Source of the DNA: Eubacterium sp. | GTDB lineage: Bacteria > Bacillota > Clostridia > Lachnospirales > Lachnospiraceae | DNA length: 62,659 nt | Reading direction: 5' to 3' | NCBI GenBank assembly: GCA_017459345.1 | Contig: JAFUDC010000098.1 | Coordinates: forward strand, 1-62,659 | Part shown: piece by piece, positions 22,732 to 33,363 of the stretch | Numbering within the stretch: position 1 is the first letter of the stretch | How the letters are laid out: every line of letters starts with the position of its first letter | Notes under the pieces: model-generated | The model's database searches: none | What the model was told of the DNA's origin: nothing | The model's input: only the letters and a program-made list of their open reading frames with translations | Made by a program: the position numbers and the translations under genes

Positions 22732-22760
22732 TTGACATTAAATGACAGTCCTGATATAAT
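22732..22760 (+). promoter_or_regulatory. Consensus promoter of the corrinoid-uptake locus
   Basis: TTGACA (22732-22737) and TATAAT (22755-22760) are separated by exactly 17 bases. Transcription should start near 22767, giving an untranslated leader of almost 580 nt that contains the cobalamin riboswitch and its terminator. The stretch from 22541 to 22731 shows no gene. Confidence 0.85.
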
Positions 22761-22863
22761 TTTTCTGACAAATTACTATGTACAGTGCTTATTATTAACA
22801 TTGATAAATATACTCAATAGCATTTTATGCTTTTAGCTATTTATCAATTCCCCAACATCAGGG

Positions 22864-23096
22864 GTTTGGTTAAGGATAAGATAATAGGGAATCAGGTGAG
22901 AATCCTGAACGATCCGGTCACTGTATTCAGGGAGTTTTCCCTACTCTTTTGTCTTTTATTTATAGTGCTGAAGGATAAACCACACTGCAAGTAAGACAGA
23001 GAGATTTACGCCATTGGATGGATACATATTTCTATCGATTCATCTGAGAAGGCTCTGGGAAAGCATTGATCTGTAAGCCAGGAAACCTGCTGTACA
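22864..23096 (+). ncRNA. Cobalamin riboswitch
   Basis: The order of conserved blocks matches the cobalamin aptamer (Rfam RF00174). First is ataataggga-atcaggtgagaatcctgaac (22881-22910), where atcagg pairs with cctga. Next come gatccggtcactgt, then GCCATTGG and CTGAGAAGGCTCTGGGAAAGC. Last is the B12 box aagccaggaaacctgc at 23075-23090 (consensus AGYCAGGAGACCTGCC). Downstream, ctgctgta at the B12-box edge can pair with tacagcag near 23150, and cattgga with tccaatg, giving a possible switching stem ahead of the terminator. Cobalamin binding would normally turn the downstream genes off. Confidence 0.92.
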
Positions 23097-23186
23097 TAAC
23101 ATTGGAAGATTGCTTCCGGGGAAAGTAGATCCAATGCCTATTGCCATTACAGCAGTTGTGATGATTTACAATATAATCATGATCTT

Positions 23187-23224
23187 ATCCCCCGATCTTT
23201 TGTAAAAAAAGCGGGGGATTTTCA
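23187..23224 (+). terminator. Riboswitch-controlled intrinsic terminator
   Basis: A stem atcccccg / cgggggat with a 17-nt loop is followed by TTTTC. It stands about 100 nt after the B12 box and 120 nt before the first gene, the usual place for the expression platform of a transcription-type riboswitch. Confidence 0.82.
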
Positions 23225-23345
23225 TCATTAGGAATAACCCCTCCCAGGGAAGAATCTTTTAATGCGGAGTCAACCTTACATTATATTTTTTCAGGCAGTC
23301 TCATGAATCTGGAAATACTGCCGCCACAAAAAGGGAGGAGTTACA

Positions 23346-24854
23346 ATGGGAAAACATGTAAAACGATCAATGCTTTTGATTCTGTCATTACTGATTATGG
23401 CTGTATTTGGAGGGATGACAGTCTTTGCCTATACAGCTGTGGATGACGATGGAGACAGAGGAAATTATGATGATACCAGTATGCATACAGTATATAGTAC
23501 TATGGGGATGCTGCGCATAGTCGATGATGGAACTAGCGTTACATTAAGTGAAGATCTGAAGACGGTTCACGTTTCAGCAACAACCAGTGAATCCTCAACA
23601 TGGAATAATATCACCAAACTGGCCTTGACAGAAGAGGAAGCATCTCTTGAAGATAAAGAGGCCGCAGCTAACGATATTATTTTTGGAGAGACTGCTGTTA
23701 ATGGTAACAAAGCAATCCGTCATATCAGCTTTGATATCCCTGTTGCTGACATTGGGAAGAAGATTCCTGTGTGCCGCTATCAGAGTGATGAATGGAAACC
23801 ATTCTCCTCTCAGGCTTATTTTATTATTCTTATGACTGATAATCTTTATAATCAGATATCAGAGGCATATGAAACAGCCACTGATTCTGAAGTTAAGACG
23901 GGTCTTGAGACTGCCATGTCAAATGTTGAATTAATTCCCGATGCTGCAAACTCCTATATGTTTAGTCCATCAAAGGTTGCCTTGGTGGATAATGGAAATA
24001 ACTGGATTTTGAAGATAATATATGGCAAGGACACATACAAGAAAGCTTTCCTTGGGTGGATTAGCGAAGCCAATGAAGATGATAGTGCCGCCATTTCCTT
24101 TGAAGGAGAGGATGGGAAAATTAACATTCCTATAAGCGCTCTAAATACAGACATTCCAGTTGCTTTTAAGGGTTCCAGAGGATATACTGCTGACCGCATG
24201 GTAAACGTAAACAAGGCGGCAAAATCAGTATCTTTTAAAGGTTTTACAAAAGCTCAGCAGGATGCTATAACCAGTCTTGAAGAAACCATTAAGACAGATA
24301 ATTACAGCGGCGACGAAAAAACTGCTATAGAGAAAATACTTGAAGATGCGAAAACAGCTATAAATGCTGCGAAGACATTTGATGAGATTGATACAGCAAA
24401 GGCTGAAGCAAATACAGCAGCATCTAAGATTAAGACAAATTCGGTTAAAGCCGCCGAGAAGGCTGCTGCTGAAAAAGCCGCCGCTGACAAGGCTGCCGCA
24501 GCGAAAGCCGCCGCCGAAAAAGCCGCTGCTGAAAAAGCCGCCATCACCGCAGCTCAGAAAGTGAAGGCTGCCATCAAAGCACCCAAGGCTGCCAAGAAAG
24601 CGATCACCGTTAATTGGACAGCTGTTAAGAAGTCTAAAAAGATAACAGGCTATCAGGTAAATTATGCCCTGAACAAGAAGTTTACAAAGAGTGCAAAGAA
24701 TAAGCTCGTCAAGGGTTACTCCAAGAAATCCCTTAAGGTTAAAAAGCTCAAAGCCAAGAAGACCTATTATGTAAGAGTTCGTACTTATACTAAGATCAGC
24801 GGCAAGACTTACTATGGCAAGTGGTCTGCTGTTAAGAAAGTTAAGACAAAATAA
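23346..24854 (+). CDS. Secreted protein with two beta-rich modules, Ala/Lys helix and C-terminal Fn3 domain
   Basis: A 502-residue exported protein; the signal peptide probably ends at VFA (residue 28). Two related modules follow: about 45-160 (ends FDIPVADIGKKIPVCRYQS...W) and 200-300 (INIPISALNTDIPVAFK). These resemble the third module of the next protein and have a distant NEAT-like pattern. A helical stretch at about 300-370 leads into an Ala/Lys/Glu-rich linker (371-398). A fibronectin type III domain (about 408-502; YQVNYALNKKFT, YYVRVRTYT) closes the chain. No sorting signal is present; the very basic Fn3 could hold it on the wall. First gene after the cobalamin riboswitch, so a part in corrinoid capture is inferred. 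Confidence 0.7.
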   Translation: MGKHVKRSMLLILSLLIMAVFGGMTVFAYTAVDDDGDRGNYDDTSMHTVYSTMGMLRIVDDGTSVTLSEDLKTVHVSATTSESSTWNNITKLALTEEEASLEDKEAAANDIIFGETAVNGNKAIRHISFDIPVADIGKKIPVCRYQSDEWKPFSSQAYFIILMTDNLYNQISEAYETATDSEVKTGLETAMSNVELIPDAANSYMFSPSKVALVDNGNNWILKIIYGKDTYKKAFLGWISEANEDDSAAISFEGEDGKINIPISALNTDIPVAFKGSRGYTADRMVNVNKAAKSVSFKGFTKAQQDAITSLEETIKTDNYSGDEKTAIEKILEDAKTAINAAKTFDEIDTAKAEANTAASKIKTNSVKAAEKAAAEKAAADKAAAAKAAAEKAAAEKAAITAAQKVKAAIKAPKAAKKAITVNWTAVKKSKKITGYQVNYALNKKFTKSAKNKLVKGYSKKSLKVKKLKAKKTYYVRVRTYTKISGKTYYGKWSAVKKVKTK

Positions 24855-24864
24855 TCCTCTGAAC

Positions 24865-24899
24865 TGCAGGGAGCCGGGCATAATGCCTGACTTCCTGCA
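24865..24899 (+). other. Intercistronic hairpin between the two secreted-protein genes
   Basis: tgcagggagccgggcat can pair with atgcctgacttcctgca across a one-base loop, with two G-U pairs and one mismatch. No T-run follows, so it is more likely a processing or stability element than a full terminator; it may tune the ratio of the first gene to the rest. Confidence 0.55.
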
Positions 24900-24937
24900 T
24901 CCTGCGTCTATCATAGGTTTTACAGGAGATGATAATT

Positions 24938-27900
24938 ATGAAAAAAAAGTACATTAAACAGGTGATTTCTCTCCTGCTTACCATCATGTTAGTTCTGTCA
25001 CCACTTGCTTCCGTGCATGCCGAAGATTCCTCCACAGCTTCTTCTTCCGGTAAAGTACAGACAGAATCGGTGAAAGATGAGGTAAAAGAGAAAGAGAAAT
25101 CTGAAACAGGCAAATCCGAATCCCAAAAGGAAGAGTCAGATAAGCAGAAAAAGTCTGAAGAAAAAACAGAAGCAAGTAAAAAAACTGAGAAAACAGAAGC
25201 AAAAAAAGAAGAAACGAAAGAATCTGACAAGTCAGAAGATAAAAAAGAGTCAGATAAGCAGAAATCTGATAATCAGGATAACGATAAGGAAGAGAATTCA
25301 AAAGCCGATAACAAAAAGGCTGATTCGGATATAGAAGATACCTCTGATCAGTCAAAAACTGATTCGGATCTCCCCGAAGAAGATAAAACAGAAGCTCACA
25401 ATGATACTATAAGTGACGATTCGGCAGCGACTCAGGAAGATAAGGCTGCTGAAGATTCCAAAGGGACAAGCCAGGAACAAACTGTCAATTCCGGAAAGGC
25501 TGTCTCAGGTGCCGGCAAGAAGGAGAAGAAGAACGCAGTTAATAACTTCAATTTTGACAATAGCACAGATATAGCAGACGGTATCTATGATTCAGACCAG
25601 TTCACATTTTCCTTTACCGGCGGAACCGGTAAGGCAACCATGACCTGCGGCCGGGTTATCGTGGAGAATGGGAAGGCAAGTGCCGTCCTGGAAGCCAGCA
25701 GTGAGAATATGATTCATATTTTTACGGGCACTCCTGCATCCAGTGATGAGGACACTTCCCTTTACAACCCAGCTAATAACACAGTAGGGAAAAATGTCTA
25801 CGTCATAAAAAATCAGAAGGTCACAATCCCTGTTAAGATCAATGCAGAGAGCAAGGTCGGAATCCGCACAACGGCAATGTCTGTGCCTCACTGGGTGACT
25901 TACACTTACAAAATCACCATTGATAAGAATAAGGTTTCCGGAGGAGAACAGTCGGGTACGGATAATGTTACGTCACTGGAAAATGGAACCTATAAGCCGG
26001 ACAGCTTTACATTTACAGGCGGCTCAGGCAAGGCAACAGTGACCTGTGATGAAGTTACAGTGAATAATAACCGTGCCACTGCGGTATTTACCGTAAGCTC
26101 TGAGAATATGACCCACATATATATGGGGCAGGCTCCTTCCACAGCGGAAACCCCTGCTCTCTATGATTCTGCATCTAATACCTGCGGCGCCAATGTGTAT
26201 CCGATTGCGGGGCTTAAAGTAACTGTTCCTGTAAAGCTTAACGTTCAGTCTCCCTGCAGCATTCGTACGACCGCCATGTCAAGCCCTCATTGGGTGAATT
26301 ATAATTATGAGATCGTAGTATCATCCACTTCTCAATCAACTTCTCCCAGTAAAGAGAGCAGCTCCGGCGGAAGTTCCTCAGGCAGCACAGCCGGCAAAGA
26401 TACCCAGACCAGCGACGCTGAGCTTATTGCCGCCGCTTCTTCATCCGGTAAACTGGCAAATGGAACATATAAAGTGAAGTCTACTACAGACCGCAAGATG
26501 TTCTATCTCTATCCTAAGGATACCAATCCGGCATGGAGTATTTTGGTAGTTGATGGAAATAAGATGACGGCAACCATCACCTTAACCGGAGATGGCTATG
26601 ACTATGTATATATGGGGACGCCGGCCCAGGCTAAAAAAGCTGCAAAATCAAGCTGGATAAAGGGGACAGTTGTCAATGGCTATTACACATTTACTATCCC
26701 TGTATCTGACTTGAATAAAAAACTTCCGATCACACCTCATTCAAAAAAATATGAGGAAGACGGTGATCCCTCGACAGAGCCCTGGCGGCCGGATAAGTGG
26801 ATCATATTCTACAGTGCCGGTGCGGTTAAGATCAAAGACGGCACAACGTCTACCGCAGCCAGTGCCAAAAAGAAAAAGAAAACTTCCAGTAAGAAAACCA
26901 GTAATAAAACCTCAGGCAAACAGACTAAGTTTAAGAACGATAATAAGAAGGATAAGGTCTCAAAATGGTCTGATGACAGCAGTAAAAGCACCAGCGCTGT
27001 TAACAGCAGCACAACGTTGAAGGATGGTGTCTATACTCCGGATTCCTTCAGCTGGTCCGGTGGTTCCGGCCGTCTTTCTTACATCCGCTGCAACAAAATC
27101 ACAGTCACCGGGGGTAAGGCCTATGCGACCATCGAGTTCGGAAGCAGCAAATATGATATGCTCCGGGCAAACGGCCGGGTTTACTCCAAAAACGGAGGCG
27201 GAAACTCCACCTTTGTTATCCCGGTCAAGCTTAATGCAAATAATACGATCATCGGCAGAACCACTGCCATGTCCCAGCCTCACTGGGTTAAATATACCAT
27301 CTATATCGGCAAGGCAGAGACAAAGGAAGCTGCCAAGAAGGCAGAACAGGCTAAAAAGGAAGCCGCCGAGGCCAAGGTGAAGCTTACAGAAAAAGCACCT
27401 GAGATACCAGGGCTTTCTTCTGACTCTGCTCAATCAGAAGTAGTGAATGCCAATTATTTTAAGCTGTATGATTATGACCAGGATGTAAAGCTTCTTTCTA
27501 TCGACCTGGCTTCTGATACAGGGCTTGAGGAAGAGTACAAGAAGAACGCCCAGGATGCTCTGGAAAAAAGCCAGTCTGAAGATGATGTGGAATATGATGA
27601 AGAAGGAAACATAATTGCCAGGTCATCTTTTGAGTGGGTGGAAGAGCTCTATCATAACAATGTGGTCAACTATCTGCTTGTCCCGGAAGAGTACGATGTA
27701 CCTGCCGGACTGGATAAGGAGTATATCATCATAAGGGTTCCTTCTGAAAAGACATATATGGCTTCCCAGTCTGGAATCTCCTATATGGAAAAACTGGGCG
27801 TGCTTGATCATATTGCCTTGACGGGAATAGATAAGGACGAGATTGAGTCTGAACAATTGAAAAAGTCCCTGGAGGATGGTAAGATATCCTTCGGCGGATC

Positions 27901-28210
27901 TTCTGAAGATCCTGATTATTCTGCTGTATTAAAAACAAAGACAGATTTAGCCGTAGTTTCTTCCGCAATGCTGCCTGAACAGGATTTGACCGAAACTAAA
28001 GATTCTGATGAAAAGACAGCTTCAGAGGATAAACAGGAGGCTCTTGAGAAACTTGAGAGAAGGTTTACGGCTCTGGGCATTCCGGTACTGGTTGATCGAA
28101 GCGACCAGGAAGAAGACGAACTTGCCAGGGCAGAGTGGATCAAAGTCTATGGAGCCCTTTTTAACTGCAGTGATCAGGCATCCTCTGTTTATGATCAACT
28201 GTCGAAGTAG
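24938..28210 (+). CDS. Large secreted four-module protein with a one-lobe solute-binding domain
   Basis: About 1,090 residues. A signal peptide (ends SVHA) is followed by a 170-residue Lys/Glu/Ser/Asp spacer long enough to cross the wall. Four modules follow (numbered from the upstream ATG at 24929): 216-332, 350-465, 507-638 and 697-793. Modules 1, 2 and 4 share a DG/NGxYxxDxF opening, a GGxG turn and the motif TTAMSxPHWV; module 3 is divergent and resembles those of the preceding protein. After a helical linker, residues 840-1093 match the first lobe of the lipoprotein encoded next (both have IPVLVDRS and EWI.. YG), but the second lobe is missing. No sorting signal or lipobox. ATG 24938 has AGGAG at good spacing. 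Inferred role: corrinoid capture and hand-over. Confidence 0.72.
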   Translation: MKKKYIKQVISLLLTIMLVLSPLASVHAEDSSTASSSGKVQTESVKDEVKEKEKSETGKSESQKEESDKQKKSEEKTEASKKTEKTEAKKEETKESDKSEDKKESDKQKSDNQDNDKEENSKADNKKADSDIEDTSDQSKTDSDLPEEDKTEAHNDTISDDSAATQEDKAAEDSKGTSQEQTVNSGKAVSGAGKKEKKNAVNNFNFDNSTDIADGIYDSDQFTFSFTGGTGKATMTCGRVIVENGKASAVLEASSENMIHIFTGTPASSDEDTSLYNPANNTVGKNVYVIKNQKVTIPVKINAESKVGIRTTAMSVPHWVTYTYKITIDKNKVSGGEQSGTDNVTSLENGTYKPDSFTFTGGSGKATVTCDEVTVNNNRATAVFTVSSENMTHIYMGQAPSTAETPALYDSASNTCGANVYPIAGLKVTVPVKLNVQSPCSIRTTAMSSPHWVNYNYEIVVSSTSQSTSPSKESSSGGSSSGSTAGKDTQTSDAELIAAASSSGKLANGTYKVKSTTDRKMFYLYPKDTNPAWSILVVDGNKMTATITLTGDGYDYVYMGTPAQAKKAAKSSWIKGTVVNGYYTFTIPVSDLNKKLPITPHSKKYEEDGDPSTEPWRPDKWIIFYSAGAVKIKDGTTSTAASAKKKKKTSSKKTSNKTSGKQTKFKNDNKKDKVSKWSDDSSKSTSAVNSSTTLKDGVYTPDSFSWSGGSGRLSYIRCNKITVTGGKAYATIEFGSSKYDMLRANGRVYSKNGGGNSTFVIPVKLNANNTIIGRTTAMSQPHWVKYTIYIGKAETKEAAKKAEQAKKEAAEAKVKLTEKAPEIPGLSSDSAQSEVVNANYFKLYDYDQDVKLLSIDLASDTGLEEEYKKNAQDALEKSQSEDDVEYDEEGNIIARSSFEWVEELYHNNVVNYLLVPEEYDVPAGLDKEYIIIRVPSEKTYMASQSGISYMEKLGVLDHIALTGIDKDEIESEQLKKSLEDGKISFGGSSEDPDYSAVLKTKTDLAVVSSAMLPEQDLTETKDSDEKTASEDKQEALEKLERRFTALGIPVLVDRSDQEEDELARAEWIKVYGALFNCSDQASSVYDQLSK

Positions 28211-28230
28211 TTATTTGGAGGAGATGGAAA

Positions 28231-29556
28231 ATGAGTAAGCAGGAAAAGATATCAAAAATAATCCTGACTCTGATTATGACAGCCCTGATTGCCCTGCTGG
28301 CTATAGGCTGCGGAAGCAGTTCAGGCCAGGGCAAGGGAGGAAGTGTTTCAGAGTCAGATACACAGCAAAGCCAGGAGGTCGATGGCTCACAGGAAGGCCA
28401 GACTGCAGTAAGCTCCGATGACGAATCATCAGCTGATGAGGAGTTGGCTGATCCTGGAAGCTCTGAGGGACAATCCGCTGACAGCGGGACGGATGGCTCC
28501 GGCCAGGCTCCTGTTCTGCAGGGCCTTACCTATGAATCCACCCTGGAGAAATCCTATGCAGAGTGCTTTGATGTATATTTTTATCAGGATGGATATAAGC
28601 TGTTTACCATAAAGAACGGCGGAAGTTTTCTCCTGGTTCCGGAGGGGAAGGAGGCACCTGCAGATCTTCCCGAGGATATCACTCCCCTGATGGCACCGGT
28701 AGGCAATATCTATCTTGCGGCAACCGCCCAGATGGCCCTCTTTTCCAGCATGAACGGCATGGACAGCCTCCGCTTTACCTCCTTAAAACAGGATGGATGG
28801 ACCTTTGACTCTATCAAAGAGAAGATGGATGCCGGAGATATTCTCTATGCCGGCAAGTACAGCGAACCGGATTATGAGATGCTATTAGAGGAGGACTGCG
28901 GTCTGGCCATCGAGTCGACCATGATCAACCACACACCCGAGATTAAGGAGATGCTTGAAGACCTGGATATCCCGGTTCTTGTGGACCGGTCCAGCTACGA
29001 GAGCAACCCTCTGGGCCGTATGGAGTGGATTCGCTTCTATGGCCAGCTGATCGGTCATTCTGATGAAGCCGATGCTTTCTTTGAGGAACAGAAAACAAAG
29101 GTGGCAGAGCTGGATGACTTTGCAAATACAGAGAAAACCGTCGCCTTTTTCTACATTTCCTCTGATGGCAAAGCTGTCGTGAGAAGCAGCAAGGATTACA
29201 TTCCCACCATGATCGAGATGGCAGGAGCCCGGTATATCTTTAAAGATCTGGCGGATGAGACAGGCAAAGCCAATATCCCCATGACCATTGAGAAGTTCTA
29301 CGACGTGGCAGCGGATGCCGATTATATTGTCTACAATGCCAGCATCGATTCTCAGGTAAACAGTATGCGGGCACTCAAAGAAAAAGACCCAATCCTGTCT
29401 GAGTTTAAGGCAGTGAAGGAGGGTAGATGCTTCTCCACCGGAAGCTCCATGTACCAGAGGACTGATATTGCCGGTGATATGATTATGGATTTCCATACTT
29501 TATTTACCGAGGAGAACCCGGAAGGAAAGCTGAAATATCTGACCAAGCTTGAGTGA
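28231..29556 (+). CDS. Corrinoid/iron-type ABC transporter solute-binding lipoprotein (BtuF/FecB-like)
   Basis: A 441-residue lipoprotein. The lipobox LLAIGC places the lipidated Cys near residue 27, followed by about 65 residues of Ser/Gly/Glu/Asp linker. From about residue 95 comes a class III (helical-backbone) binding protein: lobe 1 to about 250, linking helix with MEWIRFYGQLIGHSDEA, lobe 2 from EKTVAFFYISSDGKAVVR to the end. The family binds cobalamin, haem or siderophores. The cobalamin riboswitch at the head of the locus argues for a corrinoid. It is 20 bp after the large secreted protein and 36 bp before the permease. Confidence 0.85.
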   Translation: MSKQEKISKIILTLIMTALIALLAIGCGSSSGQGKGGSVSESDTQQSQEVDGSQEGQTAVSSDDESSADEELADPGSSEGQSADSGTDGSGQAPVLQGLTYESTLEKSYAECFDVYFYQDGYKLFTIKNGGSFLLVPEGKEAPADLPEDITPLMAPVGNIYLAATAQMALFSSMNGMDSLRFTSLKQDGWTFDSIKEKMDAGDILYAGKYSEPDYEMLLEEDCGLAIESTMINHTPEIKEMLEDLDIPVLVDRSSYESNPLGRMEWIRFYGQLIGHSDEADAFFEEQKTKVAELDDFANTEKTVAFFYISSDGKAVVRSSKDYIPTMIEMAGARYIFKDLADETGKANIPMTIEKFYDVAADADYIVYNASIDSQVNSMRALKEKDPILSEFKAVKEGRCFSTGSSMYQRTDIAGDMIMDFHTLFTEENPEGKLKYLTKLE

Positions 29557-29592
29557 TATATAGCAAAATAGTAAAACTAACAGGACCTAAAA

Positions 29593-30666
29593 ATGAGTGA
29601 GAAGAATACACAAACAAATAACCTGCCCGCCGGCAGTTTCAGAGCTGAAAACTTTCGGAGACGGAGCCGTTACTTTATGGTTTTTGTCATATTGCTTAGC
29701 GCATTTGCCGTGATAACCATAATCAATATCAACTCAGGGAATGTACACATTTCCCTGCCGGATATTGCCCACATCCTTCTGACCAGGTCAGGGGAGGGTA
29801 AGGCGGTGGAGATCATATGGAGGATACGTCTTCCGCGTATCCTGACAGCTGCCCTCCTGGGGGGCGGTCTGTCTCTGTCCGGCTTTCTGCTGCAGACCTT
29901 TTTCGAGAATCCCATAGCAGGACCCTTTGTACTGGGAATATCCTCGGGAGCCAAGATGATCGTGGCCTTTATCATGATCTTTGCTCTCCAGTACCATATC
30001 ACGGTTACTTCTTATACCATGATCGGAGCAGCCTTTCTGGGATCCCTGATGTCCATCGGCTTTATCCTCCTGGTGGCCAGACGGATCCAGAACATGGCAT
30101 CCCTCCTGGTGGCCGGTATCATGATCGGCTATATCTGCTCCGCAATTACGGATTTTATGATTACCTTTGCCAGTGATTCGGACATCGCCAATCTTCATGG
30201 ATGGTCCCAGGGTAGTTTCTCCGGCATGAGCTGGTCTAACGTACAGATATCAGCCATTGTGATCGGAATCACATTTGTTCTGACCATGCTCTGCTCCAAG
30301 CCGATCGGCGCCTACCAGATGGGGGAGCACTATGCCCAGAGCATCGGGGTCAATATCCGCTTTTTCCGTATTGCCCTGATCATGCTTTCCAGCATATTTG
30401 CCGCCACGGTTACCGCTTTTGCAGGGCCTATTTCCTTCGTTGGTATTGCCGTTCCCTTCCTGATCAAGGGATTGCTGGGAACATCCAAACCCATCGTTGT
30501 TATCCCGGCAACCTTCATCGGAGGTGCAGTATTCTGTATGTTCTGCGACCTGATTGCCAGGCTTGCCTTTGCTCCTCTGGAGCTGAATATAAGCACGGTG
30601 ACCTCCATCTTTGGTGCACCTGTGGTAATCTATATGATGATTAACAGACGGAGGGGACAGGGATGA
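29593..30666 (+). CDS. FecCD-family ABC permease (BtuC-like)
   Basis: A 357-residue permease of the FecCD family with about ten membrane segments. Landmarks: IWRIRLPRILTAALLGGGLSLSG after the first helices, ENPIAGPFVLGISSGA, and the GPISFVGIAVPFLIKGLLG segment, the ATPase-contact region. It presumably forms the homodimeric channel for the ligand delivered by the lipoprotein encoded just upstream. The ATPase gene starts four bases before its stop (ATGA overlap). Confidence 0.87.
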   Translation: MSEKNTQTNNLPAGSFRAENFRRRSRYFMVFVILLSAFAVITIININSGNVHISLPDIAHILLTRSGEGKAVEIIWRIRLPRILTAALLGGGLSLSGFLLQTFFENPIAGPFVLGISSGAKMIVAFIMIFALQYHITVTSYTMIGAAFLGSLMSIGFILLVARRIQNMASLLVAGIMIGYICSAITDFMITFASDSDIANLHGWSQGSFSGMSWSNVQISAIVIGITFVLTMLCSKPIGAYQMGEHYAQSIGVNIRFFRIALIMLSSIFAATVTAFAGPISFVGIAVPFLIKGLLGTSKPIVVIPATFIGGAVFCMFCDLIARLAFAPLELNISTVTSIFGAPVVIYMMINRRRGQG

Positions 30667-31766
30667 GTAGTAATTATTTTGAATTGGACAATCTGTCTGT
30701 CGGCTATAATCGAAAGACACTCATCCATGATATCTGTCTGGATATCAAGAAGGGCGAGATCGTCACCCTGATCGGACCTAACGGGGCAGGGAAATCCACT
30801 ATTTTAAAGAGCATCACCAGACAGCTGGATATCATCGGCGGCAAGGTTATCTTTGACGCCGGTGACCTGATGAAGATTTCCTTTAAAGAACTATCCCAAA
30901 AAATGGCGGTTGTGCTGACGGAGCGGCTTAAAACAGAGCTTTTAACCTGTCATGATATCGTTGCTACCGGACGTTATCCCTATACCGGAAGACTGGGAAT
31001 CCTGTCCCATGAGGATGAAGATAAGGTAGATGCCGCCCTGGCAGCAGTGAATGCCCAGGAGCTGGGCAGCCAGGACTTTAACGCCATCAGTGACGGCCAG
31101 AGGCAGAGAGTTCTCCTTGCAAGAGCCATCTGTCAGGAACCCGAGGTGATCATTCTGGATGAGCCCACATCCTTTCTGGATATCCGATACAAGCTGGAGC
31201 TGTTAAGCATCCTTTCACGCATGGCCAAGGCAGAGGGCATCATCATCATCATGACCCTCCATGAAATCGATCTGGCACAGAAGATTTCTGATAAGATTGT
31301 CTGTGTCAGCGAGGATCACGTGGTGCATTATGGCAGTCCCGCAGAGATTTTTAAAGAAGAAGTAATCCGTGAGCTCTACGATATAGACAAGGGATACTTT
31401 GACCCCATGTTCGGCAGCATCGAGCTGGCAAAACCCGAGGGTGACAAGCCCGAAGTTTTTGTCATAAGCGCCGGGGGAAGCGGAATTCCGGTATTTCGGG
31501 AACTGCAGAAGACCAACACACCATTCGCTGCCGGAATTCTCTACACCAACGATATGGATTATCAGCTTGCAAGGCTTCTGGCCTGTCAGCTGGTGACGGA
31601 AGAACCTTTTGAAGAAATCAGCGACAGGGCTTATGATCAGGCTGTAAAACTGATAGACACCTGTGAGAGGGTGATCTGTACCAGCTTTCCCATCGGAAGC
31701 TGCAACAGGAGGATTGCCCAACTGATCGAAAAAGCAGAAAGCAAAGGAAAGCTGAATAGGGTGTAA
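30663..31766 (+). CDS. FecE/BtuD-like ABC ATPase with a C-terminal extension
   Basis: A 367-residue ATPase: Walker A GPNGAGKST (38-46), signature ISDGQRQRVLLARAI (about 142-156), Walker B VIILDEPTSFLD (162-173). The canonical domain ends near residue 255. The remaining 110 residues form a separate domain starting PEVFVISAGGSGIPVFRELQ, with a Gly-rich Rossmann-like loop, a GILYTNDMDY segment and a predicted alpha/beta pattern. Such tails occur on some Firmicutes corrinoid/iron ATPases; what they sense is not known to me. It is the last gene of the riboswitch-led operon. Confidence 0.85.
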   Translation: MSSNYFELDNLSVGYNRKTLIHDICLDIKKGEIVTLIGPNGAGKSTILKSITRQLDIIGGKVIFDAGDLMKISFKELSQKMAVVLTERLKTELLTCHDIVATGRYPYTGRLGILSHEDEDKVDAALAAVNAQELGSQDFNAISDGQRQRVLLARAICQEPEVIILDEPTSFLDIRYKLELLSILSRMAKAEGIIIIMTLHEIDLAQKISDKIVCVSEDHVVHYGSPAEIFKEEVIRELYDIDKGYFDPMFGSIELAKPEGDKPEVFVISAGGSGIPVFRELQKTNTPFAAGILYTNDMDYQLARLLACQLVTEEPFEEISDRAYDQAVKLIDTCERVICTSFPIGSCNRRIAQLIEKAESKGKLNRV

Positions 31767-31775
31767 AATAATAGC

Positions 31776-31808
31776 GGGGGCTGTCGACAGCCCCCCTAAA
31801 CTTTTTTT
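31776..31808 (+). terminator. Terminator of the corrinoid-uptake operon
   Basis: A perfect palindrome ggggg-ctgtcgacag-ccccc is followed by ctaaac and a run of seven T. The T-run overlaps the -35 element of the aminopeptidase promoter. Confidence 0.9.
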
Positions 31809-31835
31809 GACGTAAGAAGAGTCATATGCTATAAT
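31807..31835 (+). promoter_or_regulatory. Promoter for the aminopeptidase gene
   Basis: TTGACG at 31807-31812 and TATAAT at 31830-31835 are 17 bases apart, immediately after the operon terminator, so the aminopeptidase is transcribed separately from the uptake genes. Confidence 0.8.
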
Positions 31836-31893
31836 GTAACATTGTTATGCGGAATGTTTCGCATGCAATTATTTGACCAGAAAGGATGACGAC

Positions 31894-33363
31894 ATGAAAG
31901 ATAATGTATGGCTGACTTATTCAGATGAAGATAGACAGGAGCTTAATGCCCTGGCTGAACGATATAAAGCTTTTTTAAGTACCTGTAAGACTGAGAGAGA
32001 ATGCACCGCCTTCTTTCGTAAGGAAGCGGAGAATGCCGGTTATGAGGATCTGAATGACAGGATAGCTTCAGGGACTCCTTTAAAGGAGGGAGACCGGATC
32101 TATGCAGTCTGGATGAACAAAACCATTGCCCTTTTCCAGATAGGATCGGAGCCCCTTAGCAATGGCATGAATATCCTCTGTGCCCATATTGATTCTCCGA
32201 GACTGGACATCAAGCAGGTACCCCTTTATGAGGATACGGAGCTGGCCTATCTGGATACACACTATTACGGTGGGATCAAGAAGTATCAGTGGGTGACCAT
32301 TCCTCTGGCTCTTCATGGTGTTGTAGCCAAAAAGGATGGTTCTGTCATCAATGTTTCCATCGGAGAAGATCCTCAGGATCCGGTTGTCTATATTACAGAC
32401 CTCCTTATCCATCTGGCCGGTCAGCAGATGGGCAAGAAAGCCAGTGAGGTCGTGACAGGGGAAAACCTTGATGTGCTGATCGGGAGTACACCTCTGGATC
32501 CGTCTGAAAAGAGTTCCAAGGATGAGTCCTCTGCTTCTGATAAGAATAGTGAGGAGTATTCCGCTGATAATCATAAAGATGACGAAACAGCAAAAAAGGT
32601 GAAGGAGAAGGTCAAAGCAAATATTCTCCGGATCCTGAAGGAGAAATACGACATAGAAGAAGATGACTTCATCTCTGCTGAGATCGAGGTTGTACCTGCG
32701 GGTCCGGCAAGAGACTGCGGCCTGGACCGGAGCATGATCGCAGGTTACGGACATGATGACCGTGTTTGTGCTTATCCTTCCTTTGAGGCCATGCTGGATG
32801 CCGGATCTGCCGGGCGGACCTTCTGCTGCCTCCTGGTTGATAAGGAAGAGATCGGCAGTGTGGGTGCCACCGGTATGGAGTCCATGTTCTTTGAGAATAC
32901 GGTGGCTGAGCTTGTGGTTCTGACGGGTTATGATTCCAATCTGGCTGTCCGCCGTACCCTGGCCAGATCCAGGATGCTGTCTTCGGATGTGAGCGCAGCC
33001 TATGACCCGGCATACGCGGAGGCCTTTGAGAAGAAGAATGCTGCTTACTTTGGGAAGGGTCTGGTGATTAACAAGTATACCGGAGCCAGGGGCAAGTCCG
33101 GGTCCAATGACGCCAATGCAGAGTATCTGGGACGTCTCAGGGCTATATTTGATGATAACAAGGTGGCCTTCCAGACTGCCGAGCTTGGCAAGGTTGATTT
33201 CGGCGGCGGCGGAACCATTGCATTTATCGCAGCCCTCTATGGCATGGAGGTGGTGGACAGCGGTGTCGCTGTCTTAAGCATGCATGCCCCCTGTGAGATC
33301 ATCAGTAAGGCTGATCTCTATGAGGCCAAGAAGGGTTATGTGGCATTTCTTAAGAATGCCTGA
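31894..33363 (+). CDS. M18 family aminopeptidase
   Basis: A cytoplasmic zinc aminopeptidase of family M18, about 489 residues. Metal and catalytic segments are visible: CAHIDSPRLDIK (His and catalytic Asp), YGHDDRVCAYPSF (bridging Asp), LLVDKEEIGSVGATGM (Glu pair) and SMHAPCEIISKADLYE (C-terminal His). It trims acidic or neutral N-terminal residues from peptides. Between residues about 205 and 240 there is a Ser/Asp/Glu/Lys-rich insertion that looks disordered and is not part of the usual family core. ATG 31894 is preferred because AAAGGA lies seven bases upstream; an upstream in-frame TTG is less likely. Confidence 0.88.
   Translation: MKDNVWLTYSDEDRQELNALAERYKAFLSTCKTERECTAFFRKEAENAGYEDLNDRIASGTPLKEGDRIYAVWMNKTIALFQIGSEPLSNGMNILCAHIDSPRLDIKQVPLYEDTELAYLDTHYYGGIKKYQWVTIPLALHGVVAKKDGSVINVSIGEDPQDPVVYITDLLIHLAGQQMGKKASEVVTGENLDVLIGSTPLDPSEKSSKDESSASDKNSEEYSADNHKDDETAKKVKEKVKANILRILKEKYDIEEDDFISAEIEVVPAGPARDCGLDRSMIAGYGHDDRVCAYPSFEAMLDAGSAGRTFCCLLVDKEEIGSVGATGMESMFFENTVAELVVLTGYDSNLAVRRTLARSRMLSSDVSAAYDPAYAEAFEKKNAAYFGKGLVINKYTGARGKSGSNDANAEYLGRLRAIFDDNKVAFQTAELGKVDFGGGGTIAFIAALYGMEVVDSGVAVLSMHAPCEIISKADLYEAKKGYVAFLKNA

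Follow-up and report, generated by a model that had tools for sequence, protein, structure and literature searches.

A cobalamin riboswitch-led operon of a Lachnospiraceae Eubacterium encodes a candidate surface relay with distant NEAT-like domains

We analyzed a 62,659-nt stretch of DNA from Eubacterium sp. (Lachnospiraceae; contig JAFUDC010000098.1), referred to here as the window, in a genome that we label G000. In the window a cobalamin riboswitch precedes five genes, two of which (ORF1 and ORF2) encode secreted proteins built from modules that we call A and B, while the other three encode a substrate-binding protein (SBP), a permease, and an ATPase of an ATP-binding cassette (ABC) importer. 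Judging from the sequences, this operon probably encodes a surface relay and an importer, repressed by B12, whose cargo would be a cobalt-containing tetrapyrrole of the corrin pathway, either a corrinoid or a precursor already loaded with cobalt. When corrinoid runs short, the riboswitch, which we assume to be repressing, would permit transcription, and ORF1 and ORF2 would be exported into and past the wall. There, their A and B domains, derived from NEAT, would capture a ligand, presumably of this class, and the half SBP at the end of ORF2 would dock close to the lipoprotein or the permease. The ligand would then move on to the lipoprotein, if the hand-over runs in that direction, and would be imported by the BtuCD-type ABC pair.

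Layout and recurrence of the operon

An earlier note on this DNA had described a consensus promoter, a cobalamin riboswitch, a leader terminator, and five same-strand genes ending in a terminator, three of which formed a FecCD/BtuCDF-type importer, and all of these parts are borne out. On the forward strand, where all features given here lie, the promoter (TTGACA-17-TATAAT, 22732–22760) agrees with the consensus at 12/12 positions and has a TG before its second hexamer. The aptamer (RF00174, 22850–23108) scores 58.2 bits (E 7.5e-12; the gathering score is 31.5) and is followed by a terminator-like hairpin and four T (23187–23219; z -3.66), which reaches -20.8 kcal/mol over a 69-base stretch, with 0/200 shuffles equally good. 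ORF1 (23346–24854) encodes a 502-aa exported protein and ORF2 (24929–28210) a 1093-aa secreted protein with the order A-A-B-A plus a half SBP, the signal peptide being recognized by eye in both. The substrate-binding lipoprotein (28231–29556) matches Peripla_BP_2 (PF01497, 5.5e-33) and has a lipobox, also by eye; the permease (29593–30666) matches FecCD (3.8e-72), with BtuC as its best NCBIfam model (196.3 bits); and the ATPase (30663–31766), which has a C-terminal extension, matches ABC_tran (5.4e-29). The hairpin at the operon end (31776–31795) was called by the scan on the reverse strand only, and on the forward strand a run of seven T lies a few bases beyond it.

The lipoprotein, permease, and ATPase share one operon, as in BtuFCD corrinoid importers. 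BtuC was the top model for 3/3 permeases tested, from the window and relatives, and the ATPase extension by itself matches only the model for a corrinoid ABC transporter ATPase (6.5e-8). Just past the operon is a second near-perfect promoter (31807–31835, 11/12), upstream of an ORF at 31873–33363.

We used the three A modules of the window as the query for a survey in which the family was represented by one genome per genus (200 Lachnospiraceae genomes), with counts uncorrected for kinship. The modules matched in 73/200 genomes of the family, the window's own included, in 24/391 genomes of the class, and in 17/398 of the phylum. RF00174 was present in 68/72 further module genomes of the family, and in 61/73 it lay upstream of the modules, in the same orientation and at most 15 kb away, with 60 of these within 5 kb and a median of 1977 bp. 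By chance ~0.15% would be expected, an estimate from 125 riboswitches spread over 73 genomes of ~3 Mb each. Counted per match, 74/94 module matches have an upstream riboswitch and 64/125 riboswitches have a downstream module. Among 20 additional class genomes, the riboswitch was within 5 kb in 18/20. The two without one nearby are the weakest matches (E 6.5e-6 and 5.3e-4), and one of these two, G423, has another A-domain protein directly behind a riboswitch (locus L166). For the phylum, a DNA profile found the riboswitch in 6/6 loci read (L167–L172). The pairing of modules and riboswitch seen by the earlier note in the window thus recurs across the family and in 15/17 genomes of other families. 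Chance or merely local pairing is ruled out by the 61/73 family genomes and the 18/20 further class genomes. Loci under the names Blautia, Roseburia hominis (L145), and Faecalicatena contorta carry the system.

In a second sample, named genomes were scanned with the SBP instead of the modules and the best 80 of at least 536 relatives were taken; the two samples overlap (L033/L113, L034-L035/L102, L040/L088, L062/L146) and are not fully independent. These loci have A or B domains in 74/80, the riboswitch in 50/80, and the cobaltochelatase CbiK in 43/80, and in 49/80 a riboswitch precedes the first module or CbiK gene (48 by DNA profile and L129 by Rfam). The loci of relatives most often begin with the riboswitch, followed by CbiK, B, A (B and A often in a single protein), SBP, permease, and ATPase. 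Fusions of A with a whole SBP occur in 16/80 loci and of A or B with a partial SBP in 28/80, and because of these fusions hand-over to the lipoprotein is supported. CbiK is fused to A or B in 2 loci and stands alone in 41.

Secreted modules and NEAT domains

ORF2 contains a first A domain ending in PHWVTY (25568–25921), a second A domain (25973–26320), a B domain (26450–26842), and a third A domain (27014–27310). They are followed by the first lobe of an SBP (27455–28207, ~250 aa), which the earlier note had overlooked; it has 28.8% identity to the operon's lipoprotein (5e-21) and matches PF01497 below the cut-off (2.2e-5), covering profile positions 33–119 of 235. In ORF1, which occupies the slot held by exported CbiK in many relatives, the B profile finds a B-like domain at about 23934–24233 (aa 197–296; E 1.2e-7 in a one-protein search) and a doubtful one at about 23490–23807 (7e-4 only), and an FN3 domain (24594–24803; fn3 7.9e-8) is preceded by an Ala/Lys linker.

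The modules of the two secreted proteins had been described as related to each other. This holds within ORF2, where the second and third A modules have 54 and 40% identity to the first copy and the three share 30 invariant columns, whereas the relation between ORF1 and ORF2 is weak (BLAST 5e-4 among the operon's five proteins). By iterated search, A and B merge into one superfamily of 114 domains from 40 loci and the window. In a relative, L034 (13006–17988), a riboswitch-led 1660-aa protein has A, B, and FMN_bind domains and LRR_5 repeats.

Pfam names no module of the window as NEAT (PF05031, cut-off 32.8 bits), and only B appears, at 14.4 bits (E 0.052). In relatives, 26/28 B-A proteins match NEAT at E up to 1, the best at 3e-11, and the protein of L057 reaches 28.2 bits (2.8e-6). 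When compared by hhalign with a profile of 19 NEAT stretches, A gave a probability of 95.8% (E 8e-9) and B one of 96.2% (E 2e-9), each in a one-profile search. Against solved structures, domain A alone had 4qrk as its best match (E 0.23), and the B-A profile found two NEAT entries at E 0.004, with the remainder above 0.6. From these comparisons A and B appear to be distant NEAT domains near the edge of detection, and we infer from this homology that the secreted modules are beta-rich. An orphan fold without relatives is ruled out, as profile comparison reaches NEAT. The database search of the modules proposed earlier therefore has a mixed outcome: NEAT is reached, yet the haem motif is missing from A.

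NEAT domains ligate haem iron through Tyr of a YxxxY motif, according to an excerpt of PMC4143258. We counted this motif in 166 unique A rows, 156 of which span the last strand, and there HxxxY is found in 143/156, YxxxY in 2/156, and other forms in 11, with the second Tyr kept in all. When 40 A and 40 B domains and the 19 NEAT stretches are aligned together by MAFFT, PHEIEYT of A falls without gaps on xYDHDYT of NEAT, which places His at the first Tyr position of YxxxY; YxxxY itself is present in 14/17 NEAT rows listed from this alignment. The SxxxxY segment of NEAT becomes GGSG in A, by eye, and B domains end in a WY(D/E)(R/H)-like sequence in 121/173 (a loose pattern). We infer that the conserved His of HxxxY in A may stand in for the Tyr that binds iron in NEAT domains and ligate cobalt.

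Cargo of the relay

CbiD, a marker of corrin synthesis, was found in 56/56 module genomes tested, namely 38/38 in the family (of 73) and 18/18 outside it. Among the 127 family genomes without modules it was found in 28/80 tested (in-family Fisher p 3.5e-13), and a CbiD gene lies within the examined stretch in 9/20 loci L153–L172. With 56/56 versus 28/80, scavenging by auxotrophs is rejected as a full explanation. The earlier note had proposed that the secreted proteins bind corrinoids in or outside the wall and pass them to the lipoprotein. Hand-over to the lipoprotein is supported by the SBP fusions, whereas simple scavenging fails to predict either the constant presence of CbiD or an exported cobaltochelatase.

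The exported proteins upstream in relatives are not unknowns, since 6/10 proteins searched match CbiK. Export was judged crudely, from a hydrophobic stretch upstream of the core and with no signal-peptide predictor, and such a stretch precedes the core in 83/94 CbiK ORFs; of the other eleven, three run off a contig end and the remainder look cytoplasmic. One exported CbiK, that of L154, was compared with solved structures and is related to the chelatase 2xvx, which we take to be a periplasmic Desulfovibrio enzyme. Its second-best solved relative is FetB (9b86, 1.4e-45), a member of the CbiK family that is named for haem binding and is presumably linked to Porphyromonas IhtB. It also aligns with Salmonella CbiK (1qgo, 8.9e-51) and retains His145 and His207, whose role in CbiK we take from an excerpt of PMC4063343.

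Exported CbiK occurs in 43/56 module genomes and is the sole match to the CbiK family in 25, of which 22 are at least 90% complete; the CbiK search gave no match in 3/56. The CbiK profile also matches four archaeal control genomes, and archaea carry CbiX. The chelatase counts given here come from the CbiK profile, which, given these matches, may cover CbiX in part. At L195 (14318–18412, genome G102) there are two tandem riboswitch-led genes for exported CbiK, one with a B domain, and the relay operon is elsewhere.

CbiM was found at E below 1e-40 in 18/73 module genomes versus 19/28 CbiD genomes without modules (p 1.4e-4). Matches weaker than 1e-40, left out of this count, occur in six family module genomes and in one without modules, and with them the comparison is 24/73 versus 20/28. 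When the count is limited to CbiM frames no longer than 320 aa, taken to be the cobalt type, it is 7/73 versus 17/28 (p 3.6e-7). CbiM is present in 3 of the 25 genomes whose only CbiK is exported and in 10/43 genomes with exported CbiK.

The window's own genome differs from many relatives in these respects. Its single CbiK match (L193) is cut by a contig edge, begins with no signal peptide, as a cytoplasmic form would, and lies beside CbiD, and the CbiK profile search of this 188-contig assembly found no exported CbiK. None of the five operon genes is CbiM, and two CbiM-family matches lie elsewhere in G000. A second cobalamin riboswitch of this genome (L192, 7580–13497, contig C12) heads a peptide/nickel-type ABC transporter with a 537-aa binding protein, two permeases, and two ATPases (by eye), which is perhaps a separate cobalt or corrinoid route.

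Some relatives have a further transporter, an ABC-2 pair right behind CbiL with an A-domain protein nearby (L157, 10658–12222; L035, 7238–8820), the permeases of which match PF01061 at 1.7e-19 and 5.7e-21, respectively. The ABC-2 ATPase and permease follow CbiL in 10/11 permease-holding loci (of 140), a set that counts one contig twice (L035 and L102) and includes four loci from which the profile was built. All 11 loci have an A-domain protein, but they were chosen for that system. This pair is a possible tetrapyrrole exporter, its direction being assumed, and if it exported the precursor it would complete an extracellular metallation cycle.

These data bear on the two branches of the reading as a relay for a cobalt-containing tetrapyrrole. 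One is that the cargo is finished corrinoid (B12, cobinamide, or other cobamides), making the system a Gram-positive analogue of BtuG/BtuH, which we consider a real possibility that falls short of probable. It is favored by the riboswitch control and by the permease and ATPase extension being closest to corrinoid models, and the cytoplasmic CbiK and CbiM-family matches of the window genome suggest that it may need no further cobalt route. On the other side, CbiD is present in every module genome tested, though non-makers should profit at least equally from scavenging, and exported CbiK (43/56) has no obvious role in salvage.

The other branch, which applies to the CbiK-bearing relatives, is possible but in our view not probable: sirohydrochlorin or a similar compound would exit, exported CbiK would add cobalt, A and B would hold the product, and the FecCD system would return it to feed CbiL and the corrin pathway. 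The window would then have a derived version without exported CbiK. This is consistent with CbiK being mostly exported, with both histidines retained at L154, and being the sole family match in 25/56 CbiD genomes, with CbiM being rarer in module genomes, and with the ABC-2 pair behind CbiL. In Desulfovibrio, moreover, one B12 element covers cbiK-cbiL and btuCDF, and CbiK-bearing delta-proteobacteria have no known cobalt transporter, as given in an excerpt of Rodionov 2004 (PMC545781). The relatives likewise join a B12 element, CbiK, and a BtuCDF-type importer, unlike the window's copy, which has no exported CbiK. By analogy, the Desulfovibrio locus fits an old link of CbiK, this importer type, and cobalt. 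Against extracellular loading stand the assumed direction of the ABC-2 pair, the CbiM of 10/43 exported-CbiK genomes, the window genome with its one cytoplasmic match, the 3/56 module genomes without any CbiK match, and the scope of the searches, which named CbiK and CbiM but neither CbiX, chelatases of the CysG type, nor further families of cobalt transporters. We also know of no sirohydrochlorin export, which counts against it as well.

Because of the co-occurrence with corrin synthesis, the exported CbiK, and the scarce CbiM, the CbiK-bearing relatives lean to a precursor, and for them we hold an externally metallated precursor to be as probable a cargo as finished corrinoid. The window leans to finished corrinoid because of its corrinoid-type permease and ATPase extension, its own CbiM, and its cytoplasmic CbiK. 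A broader proposal, which we put forward tentatively and regard as rather doubtful, is that cobalt insertion takes place outside the cytoplasm in many Clostridia that make B12. Metal-free sirohydrochlorin would leave the cell as a cobaltophore, exported CbiK would metallate it, domains derived from NEAT would hold it through a His ligand, and a BtuFCD-like system under a B12 riboswitch would re-import it. The window operon would be a branch with an enlarged relay in which the chelatase was kept or returned inside.

It is improbable that the cargo is haem or another porphyrin, in which case exported CbiK would behave like FetB, a haem binder, and the modules would be ordinary NEAT domains. The homology of the modules to NEAT, the rank of FetB among solved relatives of the L154 CbiK, and a weak resemblance of the SBP to IsdE point that way, and they are opposed by the upstream cobalamin riboswitch in 61/73 and 18/20 genomes, by the co-occurrence with CbiD, and by the lack of YxxxY in 154/156 A domains. 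It is very improbable that the secreted proteins serve only as scaffolds or adhesins bound to the wall, with no small ligand, and merely travel with the transporter: the low-complexity linkers, the FN3 domain of ORF1, and the LRR and FMN_bind domains at L034 would suit such a role, and the fusion proteins of several families, in which A is joined to the SBP, or B or A to exported CbiK, argue against it.

Several observations weigh against a cobalt-tetrapyrrole relay under riboswitch control. RF00174 is absent anywhere in 4/72 module genomes scanned, and 12/73 have no upstream RF00174 in the assembly, several of them near contig ends. Some riboswitch-led A/B proteins (L160) have no adjacent importer. 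In the SBP sample, 31/80 loci have no riboswitch before a first module or CbiK gene: six have no A or B module, 16 begin at the edge of the DNA examined, and nine have module genes and upstream DNA without a riboswitch. Seven of these nine are A-SBP fusions with no permease or ATPase match in the stretch, six of the seven standing alone. The importer models are below their curated cut-offs (BtuC at 196.3 of 334 bits, the corrinoid ATPase at 204.4 of 537 bits), although they still rank first for the window's permease and ATPase. For the whole ATPase, the corrinoid model leads in the window only and by two bits (204.4 versus 202.3 for FecE), the best model being FecE in relative L036 and the F420-0 model in relative L154. 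The sole solved relative of the SBP profile at E 0.01 is Lmo2184 (2.4e-8), and the best, weak NCBIfam model for the SBP is IsdE, a haem SBP (1.5e-5). Finally, the register of the last strand is not settled by hhalign, whose forced global alignment displaces the His by two residues.

The A-SBP fusions L093, L111, L115, L119, L124, and L144 have neither riboswitch nor transporter nearby, and an ssb-like gene is close to those of L111, L115, and L119 (by eye).

Known systems and meaning

Isd-type relays consist of surface proteins with repeated ~110-aa NEAT domains, a lipoprotein, and an ABC importer. The operon resembles them in having repeated-domain surface proteins, a lipoprotein, and an ABC importer, and differs in being under a cobalamin riboswitch instead of iron control, in having HxxxY for YxxxY and GGSG for the SxxxxY segment in A, and in the fusion of half or whole SBPs to the domains. 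The folds of BtuG and BtuH differ from NEAT. Like the loci of Bacteroides BtuG/BtuH and of DUF4465 (BtuJ), as described in excerpts of PMC6143338, PMC8941943, and PMC13398666, the loci studied here are riboswitch-led and combine surface proteins with a BtuCDF-type importer; unlike the Bacteroides loci, they have no BtuB and belong to a Gram-positive envelope.

Membership of ORF1 and ORF2 in DUF4465 is rejected, as seven pieces of the two proteins gave no sequence match to it at E up to 10 with HMMER filters on. The earlier statement that no Gram-positive counterpart of surface corrinoid capture had been described is not quite safe, since the B12-binding DUF4465 proteins include some Bacillota according to an excerpt of PMC13398666, and Gram-positive B12-binding surface proteins as such are perhaps not new. 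The parts of the system, namely NEAT domains, BtuFCD, the cobalamin riboswitch, and exported CbiK, are individually known. Among the matches listed from the open-access literature, which lacks most subscription papers, no paper joined NEAT and corrinoids, and we found no description in print of the combination of parts, the HxxxY form, or the SBP fusions. By term counts, the words cobalamin, Roseburia, Blautia, and Lachnospiraceae are absent from a 2014 survey of NEAT domains.

The characterized B12 surface proteins that we found in the literature come from Bacteroides and from the DUF4465 family. For Gram-positive gut bacteria, the system described here is a candidate for surface handling in the B12 pathway. 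A puzzle is raised by the 25/56 corrin-making genomes in which an exported cobaltochelatase is alone in the CbiK family. The HxxxY form suggests that NEAT domains may have shifted to another metal tetrapyrrole by a swap of His for the Tyr ligand, which would make this family a test case for the evolution of metal-cofactor specificity.

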